The notes under the pieces are model-generated. The model was not told the DNA's origin, ran no database searches, and saw only the letters and a program-made list of their open reading frames with translations. This document shows positions 13,746-41,627 of a stretch of DNA of 46,692 nucleotides, piece after piece. The stretch is from NCBI GenBank assembly GCA_938075565.1, contig CALJGU010000145.1, positions 1-46,692 of the forward strand, in the 5' to 3' direction. Made by a program: the position numbers and the translations under genes. Each line of letters opens with the position of its first letter. The first letter of the stretch is position 1. The stretch is from an uncultured Opitutales bacterium (GTDB lineage Bacteria > Verrucomicrobiota > Verrucomicrobiia > Opitutales > UBA2995).

Positions 13746-13922
13746 GGAAGATTTGAGAAAGGAACCTTGGGGCAATTGGCTCTCAAAAGCGTGGAATTTG
13801 GCAAGCTGACTGCCCGTTCTATTTGGTCCACTTGGGATTCTCTATAATTTTAATTTATTTTTTCACCCGATCAATCAGTATGATCGTCTCTGGAGTAGTA
13901 GACTATTGCTCCATGGCTACAA

Positions 13923-16900
13923 ATGAACCGAACCACGCTCTGGCTATCGCCCTGCGGCTTAGGCAAAATACGCCTATTGCTCATTTTCTTGGGTACGCTT
14001 GCTTCGTCCTTGCATGGTTTGGATCACGTTGCTTTGGAAAGACATGTCTTCGAAATCAAGTCTGGGGAGGCTACATCGACCTTACCTCAAGTCGCACGAC
14101 AAGGCAGCGTAGACGTTATGTTCGCCGTGGGGATTGCGAAAGGGGTTCAGACAAACCCGGTCGATGGGGTTCATACTCCCTTGGAAGCACTGGAAATCAT
14201 GCTGGCGAATTCGCCGCTGAAAATCGTGGAGGACCGAGAGACTGGCGCCTTTGCAATCATCCGTGTATCTGAGGAAGTAATCTCCGCACCCAAGCCTGAC
14301 CCGACACCTACAAAACTCGTTACAGAACCTAGAACTACTCCAGAAGATATGACCCAGAAAAAAGGATTATTCCGCAGCCTCCTTGGAGGGGTTGCCGCCG
14401 TACTTACCTTTAGTGGAAATACAACCAACGCGCAGGAGGCTGATGAGGAAATCGTCACTCTTCAGGCCTATGAAATTTACGGGGCTGCCCAGGCCGCTTC
14501 GGTGGAAAGGCAAAAGCAATCTGACATTATTGGCAGCTATCTTAGCTCCGATGCACTCAGTGAATTACCCGATGATGACTTGGGGGAAGCGCTATCTCGT
14601 TTGGCCGGCGTCAACGTGGTCGGCGGTCAGGGAAACGCCGAAGGCAGTGTCACCATTCGTGGTGCGGATGGTCAGTACAACACCATCAGGATCAACGGTG
14701 CCTCACAAGCCAACGCCCGGCTGGGTTCCCGGAATTTTGACGTGACCCAAATACCATCCGAAATGGTATCAGGTGTAGAGATCATTAAAAGTATTACCGC
14801 CGAGCATCCTGCTGATTCCATCGGTGGATCCGTCAATGTCGAAACGGCCAACGCCTTTGACCTTGGCCGTAAGACCTCTCGTTACAAATTCGAAGTTCGC
14901 AATCGTGATCAAGGGGACGAGAACGGCTGGGGTGTGAACTTTGTCCATTCCGACATTCTCGATGCTTTTGGAGGAAAAGGTAATCTTGGTATCTTGTTCA
15001 ACGTCAACTACGTCGACGAAGACCTGGTAGAATGGTCTACCCAAAACCGCTTTCTGGATCAGACTAACCGTACACCCCATAAATCGGATCCTAACCGGGA
15101 CAGCTTTCTGGAGCAAACCGTACTGGCTGTGAATCCCAATGCATCCATTCCCATCTGGGATCGTTTTGACCCGAATGAAGTTCGCACCACACGGGATGAG
15201 TTTACCTTCAATGCCAGCATTGACTTGATTCTTTCAGATACTACCTCGCTTTATTTTCGCCCCTGGTATCAAAAAGAAAGGGATGTTCGAGACAGCTTTG
15301 CTTTCCGGGTGGATCGATTGGAGCGCGCGTTCCGCGGAAATTACTGGTTCCTGGATGACGCGGGTAACCCCTTGGGAGAATGGATCGAAGATGATGATGA
15401 TCCCGTTTTGGGAAGCGAAGGTGATACCTTTGTTCAGGCTACAGACGGCAGTGGAAACATCATCGTAACGCCGGATTTCGAAGCCAATTTCGACGGCCGG
15501 GTGGATCGAATCATCACCGGCAGTAATATTGACAGCGAAACCTACACCTTTGATTTCGGTGGCGAAACACAGTTGGACCGAGGTTTGATCGAATACCGGG
15601 TACTATTTTCAACAGATGAAGGTGATAACTTCCGACGCCAATGGCGTTTCCAGGAGGATTTCCGCAGAACGACTGCCGGTGATCCTCTCAGAGCTCGTTG
15701 GAACGGCGCTACACCTTTGCCAACCTTTTCGGTGTTTGAAGTAACCGAAGGCCGCGGCCATGTCCCTTCCAATGGAGGTGTGAATGTATTCAGCGATGCC
15801 AACCGAAGTTTTAGCAACACCTCCCCACGTTTTCTTTATGAAAATGTAACTGAGGATGTACTCTTGGCCAGTTTCGACGTCGAGCAGGAGGTGAATGACT
15901 TTCTGATGCTTAAGGCGGGTGCCCGTTTCCGTAGCGCCAAGCGGGACAACCAGACCACCGAATTATTTATCAACCCGATCGAAGGAAGCAATGCGGTCTA
16001 TCCAGCCGGTCAATTTGCTGATCCAGCTGATGGCAACTTTACCCTTTGGGATGGCATCTATTCCGATATCGCCGGTCCTTTTGTGAGGGCGGATCCGGCT
16101 TATGATTTCTTTTTCAGTGACTATCAATCCAGTCCTGACAACTGGGAATGGAACCGCTCGGATTTGCGGGACGCAGCCGATACGGCTGAGTTGCAGGAAG
16201 ACATCATGGCTGGTTACATGCAGGGAACCTTTCGCTGGGACAACTTCACTCTGGTGACTGGTCTTCGCGTGGAGAGCACACAATTGGATACAACCTGGAA
16301 GCCTTCTAACTTCATCATTGATGGAAGTAATATTCCGAACCTCAATTCGGACCAGCAGGGCATTCTTAATGAAATCCTGCAGGAAGGCGTTCAGGATCTC
16401 GGATTTGTCGGACCAGACGGCACCTTTTCTTTTGGTGATATTGTGGATGATATTCGCCGTACTAATAGCTACGACAATGCGCTTCCGAGTGCAGTACTAT
16501 CTTACCGAGCTGGTGATAGTGGCCACGTATTCCGCTTTGCTTGGACGAACACATTGACTCGTCCGGATTACCGGGAACTGGTTCCCTTTGACTTGGGTGA
16601 AGCCAATCGTCAACTGCAGGCAGCTGGCGTGCTCAACCTGACCAATCGCGACGATGAGTTTGACTTGGGAAATCCAAATCTGCTGGAGCAGACCTCTGAA
16701 AACTTCGATCTGGCTTGGGAATATTATTTTGGCCCACAGCAACGAAATATGATTTCGGTGACGGCTTTCAAAAAGGACCTCGAGGATTTCTTGCTCGAAT
16801 ACACCTTTCAGCGGGACATTGAAGTACTGGTGGATCCGGAAGATGCGAGTCTGGGAACGGAAATGGTAACCTCTGACACCAATTTCTGGACCAATGCATC

Positions 16901-17438
16901 TACCAGAAGTATCGAAGGGGTGGAGTTCACCGGTTATTTCAACTTTGAAGACCTGCTCCCGGAATGGGATATCCTGGATGGACTCAGCTTCGTACCCAAC
17001 TACGCCTACATTACGGGTGACCAGAGTGATCCGGTCTTCGACGAGGATAAGTTGGCAGACGGCGTTTTCGATATTCTTGGATACCAACTAACGGACTCTC
17101 TGACCAATCAGGCTAAAGAGATCTACAACCTCCAGTTGTTCTACGAGCGGGAGCGCTTCAATGTACGTCTCTCTTATAACTGGATCTCAAGTTTGCAGCG
17201 GACACCGTCCACGGCTGCCATTTCGGCCATAACCTTTGATCGTGAGCAGGAGAACCTGGACCTTTCTGTTCAGTATCGCTTGTTTGCCGACAAAGACATC
17301 CGTCTGTTCTTTGAAGCTGATAACCTCACAGACACACCGAACGACGAACGCTATATCGGACCGACCGCCGGACTTTTTACAACGTCCTACCAGACCATCG
17401 GTCGCAGATACGTTTTAGGCGTGCGAGGTTCTTTCTAG
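13923..17438 (+). CDS. TonB-dependent receptor with N-terminal STN signalling domain
   Basis: An outer-membrane transporter of 1171 residues. In order: signal peptide (about 1-32), STN domain (about 40-117), a linker rich in Pro and Thr, a second hydrophobic signal-like stretch (about 146-170), a possible TonB box (EEIVTLQAYEIYG, about 175-187), the plug (about 195-315; DDDLGEALSRLAGVNVVGGQ, VTIRGADGQYNTIRINGAS), and a beta-barrel ending in the aromatic residue of YVLGVRGSF. The STN domain normally contacts the FecR C-terminus, so it fits the upstream sigma/anti-sigma pair. The likely ligand is an oligosaccharide, given the downstream glycosidases. A strong terminator follows. Confidence 0.95.
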   Translation: MNRTTLWLSPCGLGKIRLLLIFLGTLASSLHGLDHVALERHVFEIKSGEATSTLPQVARQGSVDVMFAVGIAKGVQTNPVDGVHTPLEALEIMLANSPLKIVEDRETGAFAIIRVSEEVISAPKPDPTPTKLVTEPRTTPEDMTQKKGLFRSLLGGVAAVLTFSGNTTNAQEADEEIVTLQAYEIYGAAQAASVERQKQSDIIGSYLSSDALSELPDDDLGEALSRLAGVNVVGGQGNAEGSVTIRGADGQYNTIRINGASQANARLGSRNFDVTQIPSEMVSGVEIIKSITAEHPADSIGGSVNVETANAFDLGRKTSRYKFEVRNRDQGDENGWGVNFVHSDILDAFGGKGNLGILFNVNYVDEDLVEWSTQNRFLDQTNRTPHKSDPNRDSFLEQTVLAVNPNASIPIWDRFDPNEVRTTRDEFTFNASIDLILSDTTSLYFRPWYQKERDVRDSFAFRVDRLERAFRGNYWFLDDAGNPLGEWIEDDDDPVLGSEGDTFVQATDGSGNIIVTPDFEANFDGRVDRIITGSNIDSETYTFDFGGETQLDRGLIEYRVLFSTDEGDNFRRQWRFQEDFRRTTAGDPLRARWNGATPLPTFSVFEVTEGRGHVPSNGGVNVFSDANRSFSNTSPRFLYENVTEDVLLASFDVEQEVNDFLMLKAGARFRSAKRDNQTTELFINPIEGSNAVYPAGQFADPADGNFTLWDGIYSDIAGPFVRADPAYDFFFSDYQSSPDNWEWNRSDLRDAADTAELQEDIMAGYMQGTFRWDNFTLVTGLRVESTQLDTTWKPSNFIIDGSNIPNLNSDQQGILNEILQEGVQDLGFVGPDGTFSFGDIVDDIRRTNSYDNALPSAVLSYRAGDSGHVFRFAWTNTLTRPDYRELVPFDLGEANRQLQAAGVLNLTNRDDEFDLGNPNLLEQTSENFDLAWEYYFGPQQRNMISVTAFKKDLEDFLLEYTFQRDIEVLVDPEDASLGTEMVTSDTNFWTNASTRSIEGVEFTGYFNFEDLLPEWDILDGLSFVPNYAYITGDQSDPVFDEDKLADGVFDILGYQLTDSLTNQAKEIYNLQLFYERERFNVRLSYNWISSLQRTPSTAAISAITFDREQENLDLSVQYRLFADKDIRLFFEADNLTDTPNDERYIGPTAGLFTTSYQTIGRRYVLGVRGSF

Positions 17439-17454
17439 TATAAATGTTTTGTGG

Positions 17455-17488
17455 AGTCCCCGGGAGCCAATTCCGGGGACTTTTTTTT
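17455..17488 (+). terminator. Rho-independent terminator after the TonB receptor
   Basis: A 9-bp perfect stem agtccccgg/ccggggact (17455-17463 with 17473-17481) is followed by eight T residues. A shortened relative of this element follows the receptor remnant near 23880. Confidence 0.9.
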
Positions 17489-17541
17489 ATCCAAGGGTTT
17501 TATACTGTTCGCTTCCGGTCTTGGATGCCTAATTTACACCT

Positions 17542-19398: not shown

Positions 19399-20767
19399 TA
19401 TCCATAAATTAATTACAAAGTTTCTCGTGACCCTAATGGCAATGGGGGCCTCTGCGCTTGTTGCTAACGAAACGGATAGCTTTTCTTGGGACCATATGGA
19501 AAAGCTCCGGCAATCCATAGTGGTTCCGGAATTTCCGGATAGGGATTTTCTCGTTCAGGATTTCGGCGCCATACCCGATGGTAAAACCGATTCTACCGAA
19601 GCCTTTCGGAAAGCCATAGCCGCCTGCTCCAAGGCCGGCGGCGGCCGAGTCGTCGCCTCCGGAGGGATTTTCATAACCGGTCCGATTCATTTGAAAAGCC
19701 AGGTCAATCTACATGTATCGGAGGGCACGATACTCCGCTTTCACACGGACCGGGAAAAGTTTTTACCAGCCGTACTGACACGCTATGAAGGTGTCGAGGT
19801 CATGAGCTATTCGCCCCTGATTTATGCTTACGGGGAGACCAACATTGCCGTGACAGGCAAGGGCACTTTGGATGGAGCGGCGGATGAGACCAACTGGTGG
19901 AGTCTGATTCCGCCAAAACTCAGCCAGCTGGATCGGGAACCCGATCATACTAAAGTACTTTTGTTTGATATGGCTGAGAAGGGCATCCCGGTAACCGAGC
20001 GTAATTTCGGACTGTCTTCAAAATTAAGACCCAGTTTCATCGAACCCTATGCCTGCCGGAATGTGCTCATTGAAGACATCACCATCATCAATGCTCCGTT
20101 CTGGATGATTCATCCTGTGCTCAGTAAAAACGTAACGGTTCGAGGCGTCACCTGCACAAGTGAGGGGCCCAACAACGATGGCTGCGATCCGGAATCGAGC
20201 GAAAATGTGCTCATCGAACATTGCACATTTAATACCAAGGACGACGGGGTGGCTATCAAGGCGGGCCGCAATGCTGACGGTCGGCGCATTAACCAGCCGA
20301 CCCGCAATGTCATCATTTCTAACTGCGTCATGAACACGCAGCACACTGCGATTGCCATCGGCAGTGAGATGACCGGAGGCGTGGAGAATGTATACGTCGA
20401 GAACCTGACTTGTGGAAAAATCCAACGGGTATTCCGTATCAAAACCAACAGCATGCGCGGCGGATTCGTTAGGCACGTGGGTATGAGGAATATCACCATC
20501 AAGGAAGCTACAGGAACGCTCATCAATTTTGTCACTAATTATGGCAAGGAAGAGGGACCTTTCTATCCCATCGTTGAGGATATTCACCTGAGTGACATTC
20601 ACTGTATCAAAAGCGAGCAAGCTATAGAGTTTAAAGGTAAGGTCGCCATGCCTATCAAGCACCTCAGCCTATCCAATATATCAGTGAAAACGTCTGAGAA
20701 GAAATCGCTCTTTCACCACGTGGAGAATTTAACCATCGAAAATCTGAAGATTGAGACTGGGCCGTAG
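19391..20767 (+). CDS. GH28 polygalacturonase-family enzyme
   Basis: A 459-residue exported GH28 right-handed beta-helix enzyme that should cleave alpha-linked galacturonate or related bonds. After the signal peptide (about 1-24) comes FLVQDFGAIPDGKTDSTEAF, the family's N-terminal signature. Catalytic elements are NNDGCDPES (D263, D266), KDDGVAIKAG (D284, D285), QHTAIAIGSE (H318) and FRIKTN (R349-I-K351). The start at 19391 was chosen because it lies 7 bases after gaggaag and yields a signal peptide; an earlier ATG at 19349 lies inside the GH2 gene. All canonical residues are present, so an active enzyme is likely. Confidence 0.95.
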   Translation: MNSIHKLITKFLVTLMAMGASALVANETDSFSWDHMEKLRQSIVVPEFPDRDFLVQDFGAIPDGKTDSTEAFRKAIAACSKAGGGRVVASGGIFITGPIHLKSQVNLHVSEGTILRFHTDREKFLPAVLTRYEGVEVMSYSPLIYAYGETNIAVTGKGTLDGAADETNWWSLIPPKLSQLDREPDHTKVLLFDMAEKGIPVTERNFGLSSKLRPSFIEPYACRNVLIEDITIINAPFWMIHPVLSKNVTVRGVTCTSEGPNNDGCDPESSENVLIEHCTFNTKDDGVAIKAGRNADGRRINQPTRNVIISNCVMNTQHTAIAIGSEMTGGVENVYVENLTCGKIQRVFRIKTNSMRGGFVRHVGMRNITIKEATGTLINFVTNYGKEEGPFYPIVEDIHLSDIHCIKSEQAIEFKGKVAMPIKHLSLSNISVKTSEKKSLFHHVENLTIENLKIETGP

Positions 20768-20771
20768 TTGT

Positions 20772-22118
20772 ATGGAGTATAATTTACTGAGAATGATGAG
20801 CGTTCTGCTTTTAGGATGTTGCAGCTTGGTTTTCGGAAAGGATCAAGGACCGGAGGGCCTAGGTTCCATTTTCTTAAACGTCGAAAGGCTAACCTCTGGA
20901 CCGGCGCATCATCTTTTTGGATACATTGGGCAGTCACTGACCATCCCCTGGAATGCCAGTGGCCGTTATGTGGTGACCCTGAGGACGGGTTTTCACGATC
21001 GTCTCCCGGGCACTGATGATGCAGCGGATGTGGTTCTAGTGGATACGCAGGACCAAAATAAAACCATAGCTTTGGATCAAACCCACGGGTGGAATCTGCA
21101 ACAGGGGTCTATGCTTTACTGGAATCCGTTGCAGCCTGATTCTCAGTTTTTCTTTAACGATCGGGATCCCGAGGATGGACGCGTGTTTACGGTCCTTTAC
21201 GACGTAAAACAACGAAAACGGCTAAAGGAATATCGATTTGAAGGAGGATCCATAGGGAACTCGGGAGTTGCTCCAAAAGGTGGTTTCTTTGCCGCCATCA
21301 ATTATGGTCGATTGGCCCGACTGCGTCCTGTGACGGGTTATGCAGGAGCCATGGATGAAACTGACGGATTCCTCGCACCTGACAACGACGGCATTTTCAT
21401 TATCAATGTTCAATCCGAAGAAGTTCGATTGATTGTGTCTTTCAATGAACTGTTAGGCCTCCTCCAATCGGCTCCAGCTTGGAATTTGGTGGGTAAACGA
21501 TGGACACCCACACAACCATCCGAACGAAGTACCAAGTCGCTGGATCTTAGTAAGGCTTCTCTTTACATTAACCATACCCTGATAAGCCGTGACAATGAAT
21601 GGATCTACTTCTTTGTGAGAGGCCAGGTGGGCACGCGTTCGCTTTGGTTGAACGCTCCCTGTACAATTAAAACCGATGGCTCCGAGCTGACACTGCACAC
21701 GACCTCGATTGGCGGGCATCCTGAATGGGCCGAAGGATCGCTGATGATTGGCGCACTTGATGGACAGCAAGTCGTTTACGATGTTGCTCAGCAGGAAATT
21801 ATTTCGGCTCGTACCTTGGGGAATTCAACTATTTTCCCTGATCCTGAAGGAGATGTTTCTCTGTCGCCTGATGGTCGCTGGTTCGTCAACGGATACACGA
21901 GTGAAGATCGACAATCGATCAGTTATGTAGTGATGGATCTTTCAGATGGGACGTATGCACGATCAGATCCGTTTGACCGCGGTCCCTATACGAAAGGAAA
22001 TTTGAGGACGGATCCTTCACCTCGTTGGAATCGTGAAAGCAACGCTCTATTGGTCCCTGGATGGACGAAGGAAGGTACTCGGCAGTTACATGTGATACAT
22101 GTAGAGGCCCAGCTCTAG
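20772..22118 (+). CDS. Exported TolB/WD40-like beta-propeller protein of unknown function
   Basis: A 448-residue protein with a signal peptide (about 1-22; possible lipobox LLLGC). Repeated strand pairs such as FGYIGQSLTIPWNASGRYVV, GHPEWAEGSLMIGALDGQQV, DVSLSPDGRWFVNGYTS and DPSPRWNRESNALLVPG indicate a six- or seven-bladed propeller. The fold is like TolB-type and oligogalacturonate-lyase (PL22) propellers, but I cannot see the PL22 active-site pattern with confidence. The gene starts 4 bases after the GH28 stop codon and is clearly part of that operon. A role in binding or processing the released oligogalacturonides is plausible but unproven. Confidence 0.75.
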   Translation: MEYNLLRMMSVLLLGCCSLVFGKDQGPEGLGSIFLNVERLTSGPAHHLFGYIGQSLTIPWNASGRYVVTLRTGFHDRLPGTDDAADVVLVDTQDQNKTIALDQTHGWNLQQGSMLYWNPLQPDSQFFFNDRDPEDGRVFTVLYDVKQRKRLKEYRFEGGSIGNSGVAPKGGFFAAINYGRLARLRPVTGYAGAMDETDGFLAPDNDGIFIINVQSEEVRLIVSFNELLGLLQSAPAWNLVGKRWTPTQPSERSTKSLDLSKASLYINHTLISRDNEWIYFFVRGQVGTRSLWLNAPCTIKTDGSELTLHTTSIGGHPEWAEGSLMIGALDGQQVVYDVAQQEIISARTLGNSTIFPDPEGDVSLSPDGRWFVNGYTSEDRQSISYVVMDLSDGTYARSDPFDRGPYTKGNLRTDPSPRWNRESNALLVPGWTKEGTRQLHVIHVEAQL

Positions 22119-22156: not shown

Positions 22157-23647
22157 TTAGTTCCTGAAACGAACGTCGCGTGAGTAAGGACCGAGTTCGA
22201 GTTGAGCACCGTCTGCTGAATCGCGATATGAGCCAGCAATCTTGAGGCGAACGATTCGCACGTCTGAAATGCCGTTTCTATTTGTCAGGCCTCGGATTAG
22301 GGATGGTTTCGGCCAATACTCATTCGCCGTGCAATCTTGGATCAGAATATTGGATATGTGGCTTAAGCCATGACGTTTCTGTACTCGGAAGTGAATGAGG
22401 CGTTGCTCGTAATCCGGGTAGTTGTTTTCAAAGTGATTCCCGATGAATCTGATGGAATGCATGTGGGTCCCATCTCGCGCATAAAGGGCCATCCCCCGGT
22501 CACATTCCATCACATGATTATTAGCAAATGTGATGTCTTTCATTTCTGACGCATGCGATTCCGTTCCTACTTTCAGGGCACTCTTTTTTGTAAGTATTAT
22601 GTTATCGCGTACTACGATGTCGTAAACGTCTTCAAAGCGACCATTCCGATTCGTGCTTTTAATCGCTACGGCATCGTCACCGCAGTAAAAGAAATTCTTT
22701 TCGATCAATATATGCCTGGATGAATCTGGGTCTATTCCATCTGTGTTCGATACGTAGCGATCGTGAAGCAGCTTGAGGTTTCTTAAGGTGACATTTTCTG
22801 ATCGAAGGACTTGCGTGTTCCAGGACCGTGGATCTCGGAGGATTAGATCTTCGATCGTCACATATTGGCTGTCCCGAATGGCTAAGAGTCGGCCGCTGTT
22901 ACCAGTTAGATGCCTCAAGAAAGCTCCAGAGCCATCAATGGTTCCTCTACCGGCAAGCTTGACATTTTCAGCATTTTCAACCACGATAAAGGCCGCTTGC
23001 TTCTGCTCAAATTCAGCAGGATTACCGGAAGCCTGCAATAAGGCTCCGGCATCCAACCATAGTGTGGTTTCGCTTCTGAGAAATAAAGTTCCGCTCAGGT
23101 AATGGCCCGGTGGAATTCGTACCAAAGAACCTTTTGGCGCCTTGTCGATGGCTTCCTGAATCGCTGAGGTGGAATGGGTTTTTCCGCTTGGGTCTGCTCC
23201 ATAGTCGAGAATATTGATTCCCCTTGGGTGGGAGTCTTCCTCTTGTTCCGGAAATATAAAAAGCCGTTCTTTCCCGTCCAGTGTCACGACCACCTTTTGT
23301 GGTAATTCCAATTTAAAATCGATTTCCTGTGAATCTACATTCACGACCGGATCTATACCTACTGACCTTGGGCCTACTTCTACAGAATGAAATGGCCGAC
23401 GAATTTCTAAATGAATGTGTATCTTACTGTTTACGAGATGAGGAAATTGAGCGTAATGGATATCCTTAAACTTGTAAACGAAGGTAGGTTCTCCGTTGAT
23501 TTCCATCTCGAATCGATTACTGGAAAACGCCTTAGGAGTAATGGGATAATTTGCGAGTAAGGTCTTGCACCCCATTAGGACAGCAAACGCTATAAAAACT
23601 TGGACGTATCGCCGTTGATGAATGGGGGCGGATTTGAAAAAGTTCAT
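22157..23647 (-). CDS. Divergent GH28-family enzyme with N-terminal beta domain
   Basis: A 496-residue exported protein, possibly a lipoprotein (VLMGC, C27). A beta-sandwich-like region at about 40-135 precedes the GH28 beta-helix, which begins with INILDYGADPSGKTHSTSAI. The acidic residues are present: NTDGIDPDSS (D303, D306) and CGDDAVAIKS (D324, D325). In the position of the usual His motif the sequence reads TKKSALKVGTE, and the usual RIK motif is not seen (RGMALYARDG). It could act on a different substrate from the first GH28 enzyme. It is convergent with the propeller gene and probably transcribed alone. Confidence 0.88.
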   Translation of the reverse strand: MNFFKSAPIHQRRYVQVFIAFAVLMGCKTLLANYPITPKAFSSNRFEMEINGEPTFVYKFKDIHYAQFPHLVNSKIHIHLEIRRPFHSVEVGPRSVGIDPVVNVDSQEIDFKLELPQKVVVTLDGKERLFIFPEQEEDSHPRGINILDYGADPSGKTHSTSAIQEAIDKAPKGSLVRIPPGHYLSGTLFLRSETTLWLDAGALLQASGNPAEFEQKQAAFIVVENAENVKLAGRGTIDGSGAFLRHLTGNSGRLLAIRDSQYVTIEDLILRDPRSWNTQVLRSENVTLRNLKLLHDRYVSNTDGIDPDSSRHILIEKNFFYCGDDAVAIKSTNRNGRFEDVYDIVVRDNIILTKKSALKVGTESHASEMKDITFANNHVMECDRGMALYARDGTHMHSIRFIGNHFENNYPDYEQRLIHFRVQKRHGLSHISNILIQDCTANEYWPKPSLIRGLTNRNGISDVRIVRLKIAGSYRDSADGAQLELGPYSRDVRFRN

Positions 23648-23719
23648 TTGTTAAAATGTATTGTGTTGTTTGATTGATTAATCGGGTGATCACTTAAATG
23701 GACGAACAGGGATCCAAAA

Positions 23720-23860
23720 TAGGTGAAAAATATTAGAACCTTGATTTGTAAGTGGAGTATCGTCTGTTTGCAGATAAAGACATGCGCTCGTTCTTCGAGG
23801 GAGATAATCTGCCAGACCATGGCTCGCCGATACATTTTGGGTGTTAGAGGATCTTTCTAG
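23720..23860 (+). pseudogene. Eroded 3' end of a second TonB-dependent receptor
   Basis: The stretch encodes NLDL, stop, VEYRLFADKDMRSFFEGDNL and, after a shift of frame, QTMARRYILGVRGSF and a stop at 23858-23860. The complete receptor upstream ends NLDLSVQYRLFADKDIRLFF... and YQTIGRRYVLGVRGSF. Relative to that gene about 62 bases are missing between two cagac repeats (17329 and 17391 in the intact copy). In-frame stops and the shift show it is not translated as a barrel. The part upstream of about 23720 is gone. Confidence 0.85.
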
Positions 23861-23877
23861 TATCACCAACAAATGCC

Positions 23878-23898
23878 ACTAGTCCCCGGGGCTTTTTT
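23878..23898 (+). terminator. Shortened terminator after the receptor remnant
   Basis: Directly after the remnant lies agtccccggggcttttttga, a self-complementary core without a proper loop followed by a T-run. It appears to be a shrunken relative of the terminator at 17455. Whether it still works is uncertain. Confidence 0.5.
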
Positions 23899-23970
23899 GA
23901 TTTAGTAACATTGTCATTGAGAGTTTACATACTCAATATCCAATACTTGTTAACAAATCTTCTACACATA

Positions 23971-25335
23971 ATGCGTATAAAATTTCTCTCCATTCTGATA
24001 CTGTCATCTTTTTTTGCTGCTTGTAGTTCCAATCAGCCTGAAGAGCTGAAGGACCATAAGCCCAACATCATCTTTATCATGGCCGATGATATGGGCTATG
24101 GTGATTTGGGCTCCTATGGTCAGACAGTAATTCAAACGCCGCATCTCGATCAAATGGCGAAGGAGGGACTCCGGTTTACAAACTGTTACGCTGGCTCAAC
24201 CGTCTGTGCTCCGTCGAGGTCAGTGCTCATGACAGGCAAGCATACAGGACACACCACGGTCCGCGGCAATTTCGGAAAGTATGGAGTTGTGGGTTTAGCA
24301 GGCGGCAAGGGTAGGGTGCCTTTAGAGGCAGACGATGTTACTGTCGCTGAAGTTTTGAAGGATGCAGGTTACGTAACCGGAATAACGGGTAAGTGGGGAC
24401 TGGGAGAACCAAATACGACAGGCCACCCCAACGATCAGGGATTCGACGAGTGGTTTGGTTATCTAAATCAGCGTCGAGCACATTCCTATTACCCGACCTT
24501 TATCTGGAAGGATAAAATGAAGGTGGAGTTTCCAGACAATGCAGACGGGAACCAAGGCACTTATACCCACGATTTGTTCACCGAGTTTGCTTTGGACTTT
24601 GTTACACGTCATCAGGACGAGCCGTTCTTTCTCTACATGCCCTATACCATTCCGCACTCACGGTATGAAATTCCGGATACGGCTCCCTACACCAATCAAC
24701 CGTGGACCGATGATGAGAAAGTGCAGGCCGCGATGATCACTCGGCTCGATCGTGATATAGGAAGCTTATTTAAACAGTTGAAGGATCTCGATATCGACGA
24801 GAATACACTCGTGTTTTTCTGTTCGGACAACGGAGCTGCAGAACGATGGGAAGGTCGATTTGGTGCATCGGGTGCACTCAAAGGTAGGAAACGGGATATG
24901 TATGAAGGAGGTATCCGTACGCCGATGATTGTCCGTTGGCCGGGTAAGGTGGCTGCAAGTAAAACGAACGATACTGCTTGGTATTTTGCGGATGTGCTAC
25001 CGACTTTGGCCGATCTTGCGGGAGCAAATGCCCCAACCGACGTCGATGGTGTCAGTGTTCTTCCAACCATCCTGGGAAAAGATCAGAACTTAAGCGATCG
25101 CACGCTCTATTGGGAATTTTTCGAGAGTGGATTTCAGCAAGCGGTTCGCCAGGGTGACTGGAAAGCCATCCGTTTGAAGTTGGGAGAACCGCTTGAGCTC
25201 TATGACCTTTCAAAGGATGAAGCTGAAAACAATAACGTTGCCGCACAGCACCCTGAGGTAGTTGCTGAACTCGAGGCCATACTGGCTACTGCAAGAACGC
25301 CCTCAGAAAACTGGCCGGTGCCGGAGCTAGATTAA
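23971..25335 (+). CDS. Arylsulfatase-type sulfatase lipoprotein
   Basis: A 454-residue sulfatase resembling arylsulfatase A-type enzymes. A lipoprotein signal (FFAACSS, C18) suggests anchoring in a membrane. Metal residues D39-D40 (FIMADD) and the formylglycine motif C79-A-P-S-R83 are intact. Further family elements are TGKWGLGEP, SDNGAAERW and LKGRKRDMYEGGIRTPMIVRWPG. The start at 23971 was preferred over 23911 because it begins at the lipoprotein signal. It starts about 70 bases after the receptor remnant's terminator and probably has its own promoter there. It is convergent with the broken lectin gene. Confidence 0.94.
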   Translation: MRIKFLSILILSSFFAACSSNQPEELKDHKPNIIFIMADDMGYGDLGSYGQTVIQTPHLDQMAKEGLRFTNCYAGSTVCAPSRSVLMTGKHTGHTTVRGNFGKYGVVGLAGGKGRVPLEADDVTVAEVLKDAGYVTGITGKWGLGEPNTTGHPNDQGFDEWFGYLNQRRAHSYYPTFIWKDKMKVEFPDNADGNQGTYTHDLFTEFALDFVTRHQDEPFFLYMPYTIPHSRYEIPDTAPYTNQPWTDDEKVQAAMITRLDRDIGSLFKQLKDLDIDENTLVFFCSDNGAAERWEGRFGASGALKGRKRDMYEGGIRTPMIVRWPGKVAASKTNDTAWYFADVLPTLADLAGANAPTDVDGVSVLPTILGKDQNLSDRTLYWEFFESGFQQAVRQGDWKAIRLKLGEPLELYDLSKDEAENNNVAAQHPEVVAELEAILATARTPSENWPVPELD

Positions 25336-35571: not shown

Positions 35572-35799
35572 TTTTATTGGAATGGTAAATAGGGCTAGTT
35601 GCCTCTGAATCAATACTTAGATTTTGGTTTCTCCGATTCGTTCAATATTTGGCAATATTTGTAGAAAAGACGGTTGGCCGTTTACTGGTAATCGACTCAT
35701 TGGGCATCAATTGGGACGAAAATCCGTTTGCTTTGTTCCGTCCTGACCTCAGTGTATTTAAAATTACCTAATATTTATTCTTCTCCCCTAAGATCGTTG

Positions 35800-37227
35800 A
35801 TGAATTCATTCTGCTGTAGGCTTTGCATCATTGCCGCCATTCTCAGTGTTTCTAGTGGTTGTGCGCTGCACCGCGTTGATGAAAATGCTCAACGTTTGGA
35901 GACTCAGGTTCCCAGTGCCTATGCAGAGCATTCAACCGGTGCTTGTTTGCCAGGCAGCTGGAGCCGATCCTGGTGGGAGAGCTTCGATGACGAAGAGTTG
36001 AATCGCCTTGTCTCAATTGGACTGACGAACAGCTATTCCATTCAACAGTTTACCGCGCGGATTGATCAAGCTTTGGCCCTGAGCAAACAGGCTGGCGCTC
36101 GCTTATATCCTTCGATCGATTTAGCAGCGGGGTACGATATGGAGTGGGATGGTGAAACGTCCTCGGGATCCTCAGGTGATCGAGAAGAGTTCTCCAATGT
36201 GGGGTTGTCACTTCGCTGGGAGGCGGATTTGTGGAGACGGTTATCTTCAGTACGTCGTGCCGAAGTACTCGAATTCGAAGCTTCAGTGGAGGATTGGTTG
36301 GGAGCTCGACTTTTACTTTCGAGCGCAATCGCGGAAACCTATTTTGAAATCAAGGAACAGCGCCGTCAGTTGGAAGTGATTCAAGCTCAACTGGAGATCA
36401 ATGAGTCCTTGCAAAAGCTTACGTCGCTGCGTTTTGGCCAAGGTCAGTCTTCTATTGTGGATGTGCTTCAACAGCAGGAGCAATTGGAGGAAACAAAAGC
36501 GCGTGTGCCACAGGCAGAATTTAGAATTGGACAACTTGAGTATGCGCTAGAGGTTCTACTTGGTCGGACTCCAGGAGGAGAACCGTTAGCTACTTCAACA
36601 GAACTTGGTCGACCACCCATGTTACCAGCCGTTGGAATACCATCTGAATTGTTAACGCGACGTCCTGACTTAAGGGCTGCTCAAAAACGCGTGCTTGCGT
36701 TGGATTATGATGTCGGTTCTGCTGTGGTGAACCAGCTTCCTTCACTTGTTTTGGGTGGATCGGTTGACTGGCGAGGGGACCCGAGCCTCGGAGATGAAAT
36801 CAGTTCCGTATTCGCCCGACTGAGTGCTCCCTTGTTTCGTGCTGGAGAATTGAAAGCGGAAGTTCGATTTCGGAAAGCGCGCCTCGACGATGCCTTAGCC
36901 GGTTACGCCAATCAGTATCTCATCGCGCTGGCGGAAGTAGAGAGTGCATTGCTCGAAGAGCGCAAGTTTGAGGAGCGCTTAGAGTTAGTCGAAAATCAGC
37001 TTGTTACTGCTCAACGATTGCTTGCCGAGTCGCGCAATCGATTCAGTCAGGGACTTACTGATTATCTTCCCGTTTTTACCTCCCTCAATATTGTTCAGAA
37101 TTTGGAGCGCGATGTTGTCGTTGCGCGCCGCTCGGTGCTTAGCGCCAGAGTCGGACTACACCGATCATTAGGTGGCCCCATGGTTACACCTGAGACTCCC
37201 AATTTGTATTCCCTTTCGAATGATTAA
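35800..37227 (+). CDS. Outer-membrane efflux lipoprotein (TolC/OprM family)
   Basis: A 475-residue outer-membrane factor of the NodT/OprM type. The lipobox VSSGC gives a lipidated C21. Two OEP repeats are visible: the first with WWESFDDEELNRLVSIGL and the long helix around LGARLLLSSAIAETYFEIKE, the second with ELLTRRPDLRAAQKRV and LLAESRNRFSQGLTDYL. It should form the trimeric outer-membrane channel for the RND pump encoded next. The start at 35800 was chosen at the basic start of the lipoprotein signal. It overlaps the adaptor gene by 8 bases (ATGATTAA), so the two are translationally coupled. Confidence 0.94.
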   Translation: MNSFCCRLCIIAAILSVSSGCALHRVDENAQRLETQVPSAYAEHSTGACLPGSWSRSWWESFDDEELNRLVSIGLTNSYSIQQFTARIDQALALSKQAGARLYPSIDLAAGYDMEWDGETSSGSSGDREEFSNVGLSLRWEADLWRRLSSVRRAEVLEFEASVEDWLGARLLLSSAIAETYFEIKEQRRQLEVIQAQLEINESLQKLTSLRFGQGQSSIVDVLQQQEQLEETKARVPQAEFRIGQLEYALEVLLGRTPGGEPLATSTELGRPPMLPAVGIPSELLTRRPDLRAAQKRVLALDYDVGSAVVNQLPSLVLGGSVDWRGDPSLGDEISSVFARLSAPLFRAGELKAEVRFRKARLDDALAGYANQYLIALAEVESALLEERKFEERLELVENQLVTAQRLLAESRNRFSQGLTDYLPVFTSLNIVQNLERDVVVARRSVLSARVGLHRSLGGPMVTPETPNLYSLSND

Positions 37228-38428
37228 GAAATCCACCATCAGTACTTTTTTTACGATAATTATCATCCTCGCCGTTGGTGCCGGAGCATTTTACCTCCTC
37301 ATCACCACAGGACCTGAAACCCTGCCAGAGGAGCAGGCCAGTTCGGCCAAATTAGTTCAGACTATTCCATTGGTGCCGTATACTCGGTCCGTCTCCGTAA
37401 GCGCTCAAGGGAGTGTAATTCCTTCCAGGACGGTGACTATTAAGCCTCAGGTATCCGGTCAGGTGATCTGGCAGAGTGATTCTGTAACTGTCGGTGGTTA
37501 CGTGAAGGCCGGCGAAGAATTAATCCGAATTGATCCTAAGGACTATGAGCTGGCTTTGTCTGAGACACGTTCGAATTTTGAGACGGCACGTTTTGAACGG
37601 GAGGTCGAAAGTGGCAGGCAGGTAATAGCTCAGCGTGAGTGGAATGAGCTTCAGTCAGATCTTGATATGGAAGAGGTTAACCGGTCGCTGGTGTTACGTG
37701 AACCTCACCTCAGGAGAGCGGAGGCCCTGATGGAGAAGGCTAACAACGATATTGAAGTGGCTGAGCTGCAGATTTCCCGAACGGTGATTGAGGCTCCCTT
37801 TAATGCCATGGTTGTAAACGAATCGGTTGAAGTGGGTCAGCTCCTGAATCCCGGTTCTGAAATCTGCGAATTAGTAGGCACAGACGAATTTTGGATACAG
37901 ACCAAGATTCCCTTTTCTGAATTGAAGTGGGTCAAGTTTCCCAAAGATGGAGAACCCGGTGCACTGGCCCGCGTCTTATTGGACGTTGGAGATGGTCAGG
38001 TGGAACAGTGGGAAGGCGAAGTGATACGATTGTTGAGTGACCTCGATCCACTCGGACGCATGGCTCGTGTAATCATCTCAGTCAAAGATCCTCTGGCTCT
38101 CTATGGCAAATCCAGCAGCACGCTTCCTTTGCTACTTGGTAGTTATGTCGAAGTGGAGATTGATGCAGGGGAGTTAGAGAATTCTATCACGATTCCGAGA
38201 GAGGCTTTACGGGAGGGAAACAAAATCTGGGTTGTTGGACCTGATAAGCTTCTAAAGGTCGTTGAGGCTAGTGTACTCTGGCCTGAAAAAGACACTTTGT
38301 TGATATCCGGCGATCTTGAAAGAGGTGAGGAACTGATTGTTAGCGATCTTCGTGTCGCTTTACCGGGAATGGAAGTCGACCCTCAACCCTCTACTGCATA
38401 CTCCGAACTTTTGACAGGAACCCCATGA
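37220..38428 (+). CDS. RND efflux membrane-fusion (periplasmic adaptor) protein
   Basis: A 402-residue HlyD/AcrA-like adaptor. One N-terminal anchor helix (about 6-27) is followed by a lipoyl/biotinyl-like motif (TIKPQVSGQVIWQ, then VGGYVKAGEELIRIDPKDY), a coiled-coil hairpin (about 110-180), and the second half-lipoyl segment (TVIEAPFNAMVVNESVEVGQ). The start at 37220 was chosen over 37172 because it begins the anchor helix and overlaps the previous stop codon. It links the inner-membrane pump to the outer-membrane channel. Confidence 0.95.
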   Translation: MIKKSTISTFFTIIIILAVGAGAFYLLITTGPETLPEEQASSAKLVQTIPLVPYTRSVSVSAQGSVIPSRTVTIKPQVSGQVIWQSDSVTVGGYVKAGEELIRIDPKDYELALSETRSNFETARFEREVESGRQVIAQREWNELQSDLDMEEVNRSLVLREPHLRRAEALMEKANNDIEVAELQISRTVIEAPFNAMVVNESVEVGQLLNPGSEICELVGTDEFWIQTKIPFSELKWVKFPKDGEPGALARVLLDVGDGQVEQWEGEVIRLLSDLDPLGRMARVIISVKDPLALYGKSSSTLPLLLGSYVEVEIDAGELENSITIPREALREGNKIWVVGPDKLLKVVEASVLWPEKDTLLISGDLERGEELIVSDLRVALPGMEVDPQPSTAYSELLTGTP

Positions 38429-38438
38429 GGAAAGCGCT

Positions 38439-41400
38439 ATGAAAAGTAACAGCTTTAATGACACCTCGAACGTATCAGGCCTCATCGCCTGGTTTGCCAG
38501 GAACCATGTAGCTGCCAACTTACTTATGTTGGCTATTATTGTGGTTGGCCTGGTCGTAGCCCGAAATATTCGTCAGGAAATTTATCCCCTGTTTGAAGTC
38601 GATACGGTTGAAGTCGATATGCAATACCGAGGCGCGAGCCCCGAAGAAGTTGAGCAATCCGTTATTCTGCCTATTGAGTCGGAGTTACGTGGACTGGAGC
38701 TTACACGGCGTATCGAATCTTCTGCGTCCGAAGGTAGAGCCAGCGTATCGGTCGAGATCATGCCAGGCTTTGACCGCAATCGAGCCCTGCAGGAAGTTAC
38801 AGCCTCAGTCGCCCGTATCAGTTTATTTCCTGATGAGACCGAACCTCCTATTGTCTCACTTGGAACAAGTCGGCGCCGAGGGGTTAATTACGTAGCGGTC
38901 TCCGGAAATATCGATATTCGAACTTTGATTCAATTTGCCCACGAGGTTGAGGATGGTCTACTGGCTCAACCCGAGATCGCTTTGGTTGAATTGACCGGCG
39001 TTCGTCGCCCGGAAATCTTGATTGAAGTTCCCCAGACCCAACTTCGGTCCTTAAATCTAACCCTTCAGCAAATTGCCCAGGCCATAGACCGTGCGGCTTT
39101 AGATGTTCCGGCGGGTACTATGAAAACAGCGGGCGGTGATATTCTATTGAGGACGACCGAGCGCCGCTACTTCGGCAGTGAATTTGAGGAGATCCCGATT
39201 AAGAGCAGTAACACAGGAGCCGAAATTAAACTCGGAGATATTGCCTACATTGAAGACGGGTTTGAAGAGACCAAACGTGAATCGTATTACAATGGTAAGC
39301 AGGCCGTATTACTTTCCGTTTATGCATCAGAAAGTCAGCCACCGATTAAAGTGGCTCATGCTGTTAGCCGCTACATTAAGCAGTTGGCTCCCACGCTCCC
39401 AGAATCCGTTGATGTAGAGGTGAGTTATGATCGGACTGAAGATTATCGAGAGCGGATCAATCTCCTTCGCTTCAACGGAACGATCGGGTTGCTCTTAGTT
39501 CTGCTGGCACTCGGAATGTTGCTCGAACTACGCGTGGCATTTTGGACGGCTATCGGTATCCCGGTTTCTATTCTTGGTTCCTTGATTCTTCTTCCAATGA
39601 TGGATGCCAGCGTAAATATGATCTCGGTTTTTGGCTTCATCGTGACGCTTGGAATTGTAGTCGATGATGCGGTGGTTGTAGGGGAGGACATCTTTCACAA
39701 AATATCTCAGGGGATGACGCGCTTAGACGCAGCGGTGGCCGGTGTAAGAGAAATGACAATACCTGTCATATTTGCGGTGAGTACCAACATCATTGCTTTT
39801 CTGCCACTCTTCTTTGTGCCCGGTGAAAGTGGTCGGTTCTTACATGTATTACCCGCGGTGATCATCGCTGTATTCACTGTTTCTTTGATCGAAGTGCTTT
39901 TCATTCTTCCTTCTCATCTGGCTTTCTCGAAAAAGAACCCTCATACGAATTCTCTGTTTTCTCGCTTTGATCGGTTTCAGACGAAACTGCGGTTGAAATT
40001 GGACGCCGGGATGGAGAATTTCTACCGCCCGATTTTGCATACTGTCATCCGTTTTCGCTATATAACCATAGCCGTGTTTGCTGCATCGCTCATGATCGTC
40101 ATTGGTTATACTTGGAGTGGGCGAGTGAACTTTACTTTCAATCCGACGATTGAGAATGATTATATTCAGGGCGAATTGGAGATGCCTACAGGAACCCCAA
40201 TTAAACGAACCCGTGAAGTGATTTTTATTATAGAGGAAGCCGCTAAGCGTGCGATTGCCAAATTGGAAGATGAGAATCCGGATTTCGTTCGCAATATTCG
40301 TGTGTCAGTCGCAGACCGTGGCAATGACAACGCAGCCCGAGTAGCCATCAAGCTGGTGCCGCAAAACTATCGCAAAGTAACCGGTGCTGGATTTGTCAAC
40401 GTATGGCGAGAGGAAGTCCCCGAGATTCCAGATATTGAATCGTTGTTCTTTGACTACCTGGCTGGTCCCGGAGGAGAAGCTGCGATTTATATTCAGTTGT
40501 CTCATCCCGATGTTGATACACTGCGCCAGGCCGCCGAGGAACTCGGTGAAATGGTGGCTCGTTATCCAGGGGTAACCGATATTCGTAAAGGATTTGGACG
40601 TGAAATGCCTCAGCTAAGTTTCGAAATCAAACCTGCTGGACAGGCCATGGGAATTACCGCTCGTGACCTAGGGCAACAGATTCGCAACGCCTTCTACGGG
40701 GCGGAAGCTCTTCGGCAACCACGTGAACGTGAAGAACTTCGAGTCATGGTTCGCTTGCCCGAAAAGGATCGTCGTTCTCTAAGTGCTCTGGAGGGATTAT
40801 TAATCAAGGCACCCAATGGAGCAGAGATCCCCATTTCTCAGGCTGCTGAAATCACGGAAACTACAGCACCCGTGCGGATTACTCGTGTGGATGGAGCTCG
40901 CGTGGTGAATGTGACGGCCAATGTCATCGCCAGTGTGACCAATGGAAACAAAGTGCTGACATCTATGGAGAAAAAAGAACTTCCGGAACTGCTGAATCGT
41001 TTCCCGGGATTGCGTTATACCTTTGAAGGGGAACAGCGGGATCAGCGTGAAGCCACGAGTAGTTTGAGCGTCGGTTTGACTGCCTCTCTATTTGCTATCT
41101 TTGCCATCATGGCTTCTTTTCTTCGCAGCTATATTCAATCTGCGGTGGTCCTAATGACGATTCCTTGGGGCTTAGCCGGTGCAGTCGTGGGGCATATCCT
41201 ACTTGGTTTCGACCTGAGCATTTATAGTGTTCTGGGGATGATCGCACTCTGTGGAATGGTCGTAAATGGAGGCTTCGTGCTGGCGGTGACTCGAAACAGA
41301 TACGTGGATCGTGGACTCTCATTAAATGAGGCAACGATCGAGGCAGCTAAGCGTCGATTCAGGCCGATTTTTCTGACCGCTATTACAACTTTCCTGGGAT

Positions 41401-41627
41401 TGGGTCCCATGATTTTCGAGACAAACGAACAGGCGCTTTTCCTAGTTCCCATGGCTATCTCATTGGGGGTAGGAACTTTGGCTTCCTCTCTAGTGGTCTT
41501 GATTCTGGTTCCGGTGGCCTTTGTGATCATTGAGGAGATCAAAGGCCTTAGATCCGGAGAGAAACAAGAGGAGGATTCACTGCCTCCTTTGGGGGGTGAG
41601 GTCTTTCATGCCCGTCAAAAACTGTGA
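38439..41627 (+). CDS. RND-superfamily efflux transporter
   Basis: A 1062-residue inner-membrane pump of the RND superfamily. It has twelve transmembrane helices in two halves, with large periplasmic loops after the first and seventh. TM4 carries the proton-relay acidic pair in LGIVVDDAVVVGEDI. Other family elements are YRGASPEEVEQSVILPIE and IPVSILGSLIL. A gagga ribosome binding site lies 8 bases before the ATG, and the gene starts 10 bases after the adaptor stop codon. The efflux substrate cannot be inferred. Confidence 0.96.
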   Translation: MKSNSFNDTSNVSGLIAWFARNHVAANLLMLAIIVVGLVVARNIRQEIYPLFEVDTVEVDMQYRGASPEEVEQSVILPIESELRGLELTRRIESSASEGRASVSVEIMPGFDRNRALQEVTASVARISLFPDETEPPIVSLGTSRRRGVNYVAVSGNIDIRTLIQFAHEVEDGLLAQPEIALVELTGVRRPEILIEVPQTQLRSLNLTLQQIAQAIDRAALDVPAGTMKTAGGDILLRTTERRYFGSEFEEIPIKSSNTGAEIKLGDIAYIEDGFEETKRESYYNGKQAVLLSVYASESQPPIKVAHAVSRYIKQLAPTLPESVDVEVSYDRTEDYRERINLLRFNGTIGLLLVLLALGMLLELRVAFWTAIGIPVSILGSLILLPMMDASVNMISVFGFIVTLGIVVDDAVVVGEDIFHKISQGMTRLDAAVAGVREMTIPVIFAVSTNIIAFLPLFFVPGESGRFLHVLPAVIIAVFTVSLIEVLFILPSHLAFSKKNPHTNSLFSRFDRFQTKLRLKLDAGMENFYRPILHTVIRFRYITIAVFAASLMIVIGYTWSGRVNFTFNPTIENDYIQGELEMPTGTPIKRTREVIFIIEEAAKRAIAKLEDENPDFVRNIRVSVADRGNDNAARVAIKLVPQNYRKVTGAGFVNVWREEVPEIPDIESLFFDYLAGPGGEAAIYIQLSHPDVDTLRQAAEELGEMVARYPGVTDIRKGFGREMPQLSFEIKPAGQAMGITARDLGQQIRNAFYGAEALRQPREREELRVMVRLPEKDRRSLSALEGLLIKAPNGAEIPISQAAEITETTAPVRITRVDGARVVNVTANVIASVTNGNKVLTSMEKKELPELLNRFPGLRYTFEGEQRDQREATSSLSVGLTASLFAIFAIMASFLRSYIQSAVVLMTIPWGLAGAVVGHILLGFDLSIYSVLGMIALCGMVVNGGFVLAVTRNRYVDRGLSLNEATIEAAKRRFRPIFLTAITTFLGLGPMIFETNEQALFLVPMAISLGVGTLASSLVVLILVPVAFVIIEEIKGLRSGEKQEEDSLPPLGGEVFHARQKL

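Follow-up and report, generated by a model that had tools for sequence, protein, structure and literature searches.

The window analysed here, a stretch of 46,692 nucleotides from an uncultured Opitutales bacterium, contains the operon of an intact TonB-dependent receptor, and glycosidase genes, a gene of unknown family and a sulfatase lie behind it (Table 1). Between the minus-strand GH28 gene and the plus-strand sulfatase, in the divergent upstream region of both, there is a short segment that resembles the 3' end of the receptor gene. The locus was compared with those of two genomes of the same genus (G001 and G004), an Opitutaceae MAG (L060) and two further relatives (G005 and L061).

Table 1. 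Genes and sequence features at the receptor locus, in window coordinates.
Feature	Position	Strand	Remarks
Sigma-70 ECF-like gene	12109		Receptor operon
FecR gene	12681		Receptor operon
Intact TonB-dependent receptor, homologue of the relic	13923..17438	+	Above TIGR01782 cut-off; Plug domain; 93% identical in G001
Intact terminator of the receptor gene	17453..17490	+	-22.4 kcal/mol, z -3.8
GH2 gene	17542		After the receptor
First GH28 gene	19349		After the GH2 gene
Gene of unknown family	20751..22118	+	In the receptor's cluster in L060 (62% identical); beside the same enzymes in G005 (64%); missing from the site in G001
GH28-type (polygalacturonase-like) gene	22157..23647	-	No close relative in searches of order and phylum samples (at most 38% identical)
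Relic, 3' end of a TonB receptor gene	23736..23863	+	75% over 128 aligned bases to the receptors of the window and G001; two in-frame stops; frameshifting 62-base deletion
Junction of the 62-base deletion	23806..23819	+	One CAGAC remains in the alignment, two in the intact gene
Collapsed terminator	23881..23899	+	AGTCCCC abuts GGGG-CT and the T-run; loop and one CCCGGG repeat gone
Sulfatase, 3' of the relic	23971..25335	+	In G001 directly after the first GH28 gene

The product of the gene of unknown family is conserved and about 450 amino acids long. It had no significant match in Pfam, NCBIfam or PDB sequences, and its relatives across the order are found beside polysaccharide genes or sulfatases. 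A promoter-like element, TTTCACCCGAT...GATCGTCTCTGGAG, precedes the receptor gene at 13858-13920; it is conserved in the window, G005, L060 and L061 and is more diverged in G001. The neighbouring ECF sigma factor plausibly acts on this element, whose complete pattern is found at a single place in the genome. At 23675-23689, oriented like the minus-strand GH28 gene and 27 bases ahead of its start, there is a near copy of the left part, TCACCCGATTAATCA, with the right part absent.

Homology and decay of the receptor relic

Local alignment of 23720-23898 with 17240-17490 gave a score of 104, while 1,000 dinucleotide shuffles averaged 19.6 and never exceeded 34. The match to the end of the receptor that had been proposed in the first-pass annotation is thus upheld, but the clear homology starts at about 23736 rather than at 23720 and runs to about 23863, corresponding to roughly the final 190 bases of the receptor gene. 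When the receptor tail was used as a DNA query against the whole 4.6-Mb genome, E values below 1 were obtained only at the receptor itself and at the relic, where 23809-23863 matched at 82% (E 2.4e-8). At the protein level, the match covered 23725-23820 with an E value of 1.3e-6. Neither the sequence before the relic (23648-23733) nor that after it (23899-23970) showed homology to the receptor or its flanks, both scoring no better than shuffles, and no trace of the rest of a second receptor gene is left beside the relic.

The reading frame of the segment is disrupted. The first frame reads EKY(stop)NLDL(stop)VEYRLFADKDMRSFFEGDNL, where the two in-frame stops are a TAG and a TAA. The second frame, entered after a gap in the alignment, reads RRYILGVRGSF(stop) and ends in the same TAG as the intact receptor. 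Both peptides quoted in the first-pass annotation were therefore found, in two different frames, and the stops that it reported are present. The deletion, which it had put at about 62 bases, is 62 bases long, lies between CAGAC copies and shifts the frame. The segment combines significant homology to the TIGR01782 family with a disrupted frame, as befits a pseudogene of a TonB-dependent receptor. By these comparisons the relic at 23736-23863 is confirmed as a real, if ordinary, pseudogene scrap of about 130 bases.

A degraded terminator that had lost its loop was also predicted behind the relic, and the comparison with the intact terminator agrees with this. The 10-mer AGTCCCCGGG occurs at two sites only in the window, at 17455 in the intact terminator and at 23881 behind the relic. 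The fold energy is -22.4 kcal/mol for the former and -5.3 kcal/mol for the latter, which is no better than shuffles. The element at 23881 lacks the stable hairpin that precedes the T-run of an intrinsic terminator; the most that can be drawn is a stem of 5 pairs with a 3-base loop. The similarity of the terminator stretch taken alone is moderate, since its score was reached by 164 of 2,000 shuffles in the comparison with the window's own terminator and by 10 of 2,000 in that with G001. The case for a terminator relic is made because the unique 10-mer stands at the expected distance past the stop, not because of the score of the stretch. The G001 terminator has two complete CCCGGG copies; in the window's own terminator the second is CCGGG. 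Since CCCGGG reads alike on both strands, the two copies in the terminator hairpin are at the same time direct repeats, and slippage between them would remove the hairpin loop.

Descent of the relic and the locus in relatives

Over the 128 aligned columns, the relic is identical to the window's own receptor and to the G001 receptor at 96 positions each (75%), and these two receptors agree with one another at 107 of the same columns (84%). The relic sides 8:8 at the 21 sites that separate them. A tree of the columns placed the relic beside the two receptors with bootstrap values of 55-63, a weakly supported position because only 128 bases could be aligned. Over about 55 bases the relic had seemed nearer to the G001 receptor (87% vs. 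82%); this difference was gone over the full 128 bases.

The changes found only in the relic, at positions where the window and G001 receptors are the same, affected 12 of 28 third codon positions and 7 of 79 first and second positions (p = 0.0002), an excess that speaks of past coding constraint. A freely decaying fragment would not give such an excess, and the relic therefore comes from a receptor that stayed under selection during most of its separate history. By the same reasoning, most of its divergence would have arisen during the life of the working receptor, and its death would be recent. The pattern shows that the relic derives from a functional receptor with an evolution of its own, and that the gene at 13923 was not partially copied here in recent times.

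G001 is collinear with the window over most of 4.8-46.7 kb. Its sulfatase comes almost directly after the first GH28 gene; the two genes that lie between them in the window are absent along with the relic, which is at the edge of the missing 3.2-kb stretch. A misassembly is made less likely by the synteny on either side. Elsewhere in the collinear region, at 35740-41592, the window has an RND efflux set (OEP, HlyD-type and AcrB-type), and G001 has about 64 bases instead. In G004 the genes on either side are present, and the receptor operon and the relic are absent. The place of the operon in this genome (L088:5858-6680) is taken by about 825 bases with no large reading frame and no similarity to the operon; a ferredoxin-like snippet was seen there by eye. 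The relic was sought in this 825-base gap before the G004 sulfatase and at the G001 junction, and was found at neither. In L060 a DUF4962/heparinase-like gene and then a relative of gene 20751 come after the receptor, and in G005 a heparinase-like gene precedes gene 20751, which precedes the first GH28 gene, the three being spread over two contigs. This polysaccharide locus is reshuffled fast among close relatives.

The first-pass annotation had proposed that related genomes be compared for a full second receptor at this place. None was found there in G001 or G004, and the contigs of G005, L060 and L061 stop before that point. A search of 373 genomes of the order for a second receptor turned up close relatives in single copies only.

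Origin of the relic and comparison with known systems

The best explanation, to which we give a probability of about 85%, is that 23736-23899 holds, as an unconstrained stump, the 3' end and terminator of a second TonB-dependent receptor, which belonged to the same family as that at 13923. This receptor lineage would have remained functional while it evolved in parallel with the receptors of the window's species and G001, and would then have been lost recently. In the probable order of events, the upstream parts were all removed, with the break at about 23736; the 62-base deletion between the CAGAC copies and the nonsense changes would have followed, and the terminator loop would have been lost by deletion between two CCCGGG copies. 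A terminator on the plus strand serves no evident purpose at this site, and the relic is expected to have no function.

The second receptor may either have stood here as a paralogue or have supplied only a tail that came with recombining DNA. Two receptors flanking the glycosidase genes had been suggested initially. The third-position excess bears out a second working receptor, but a complete one at this place has no counterpart in relatives. The possibility was considered that a full paralogue existed here before the window's species and G001 split, in the order receptor, glycosidases, second receptor and sulfatase, and was lost in both, leaving its tail in the window only. The relic is equidistant from the two receptors, its split from them is deeper than theirs (75% vs. 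84%), and its codon pattern is that of a once-working gene. However, no relative has two receptors at the locus, and independent losses would be required, including a clean one in G001; this history is a tentative one, with a sizeable minority chance. The recombination scar offered as an alternative in the first-pass annotation fits equally well. There is close to an even chance that no complete second receptor was ever present here and that the tail arrived with, or marks the edge of, DNA of a related species that recombined into the locus along with gene 20751, the GH28 gene at 22157 or both. This would agree with the position of the relic at the edge of the stretch absent from G001, with a GH28 gene that has no near relative in the genus, and with the variable gene order around the receptor among relatives. 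A single-crossover insertion in a receptor tail would, moreover, leave a tail without its 5' part ahead of the former downstream gene. Against it, no donor locus was found, and the sulfatase flank is 83% identical to G001, diverged no more than its surroundings.

If the segment were instead a copy of part of the window's own receptor tail and had never been functional, the presence of a tail and terminator only, with no homology upstream of about 23736, would be accounted for. This is unlikely, since the concentration of the differences at third codon positions largely excludes it and the relic resembles the window's receptor no more than that of G001. Retention of the segment as a functional RNA or regulatory element is highly improbable. 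Judging from gene order, the divergent intergenic site must hold two promoters, but an Rfam search of the segment was empty, the terminator remnant has no stable fold, and similar segments in the other genomes of the family are receptor tails only, rather than a conserved functional element. There is a slim chance that the receptor tail and terminator act as crossover homology by which enzyme cassettes behind the receptor are swapped, in which case such stumps would mark a recurrent exchange site in Opitutales polysaccharide loci.

The relic preserves a trace of gene turnover on a small scale. It shows that the locus received a contribution from a second receptor lineage that once worked, that close relatives exchange the enzymes behind the receptor, and that the cluster has been rearranged. 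The relic suggests no new mechanism and is of modest interest, being well explained in kind.

No specific precedents for the relic were found in the literature. Receptors of the TIGR01782 (TonB-Xanth-Caul) type occur with an ECF sigma factor and FecR in polysaccharide-utilisation-like loci. The intact homologue at 13923 is the same, in that it passes the cut-off and follows sigma-70 ECF-like and FecR genes, whereas the relic encodes no protein. With pseudogene remnants in rearranged catabolic gene clusters the relic shares truncation, stops, a frameshifting deletion at a short direct repeat and a decayed terminator. Compared with these it adds nothing beyond the ordinary, the neat detail being the loss of the terminator loop between the CCCGGG arms.
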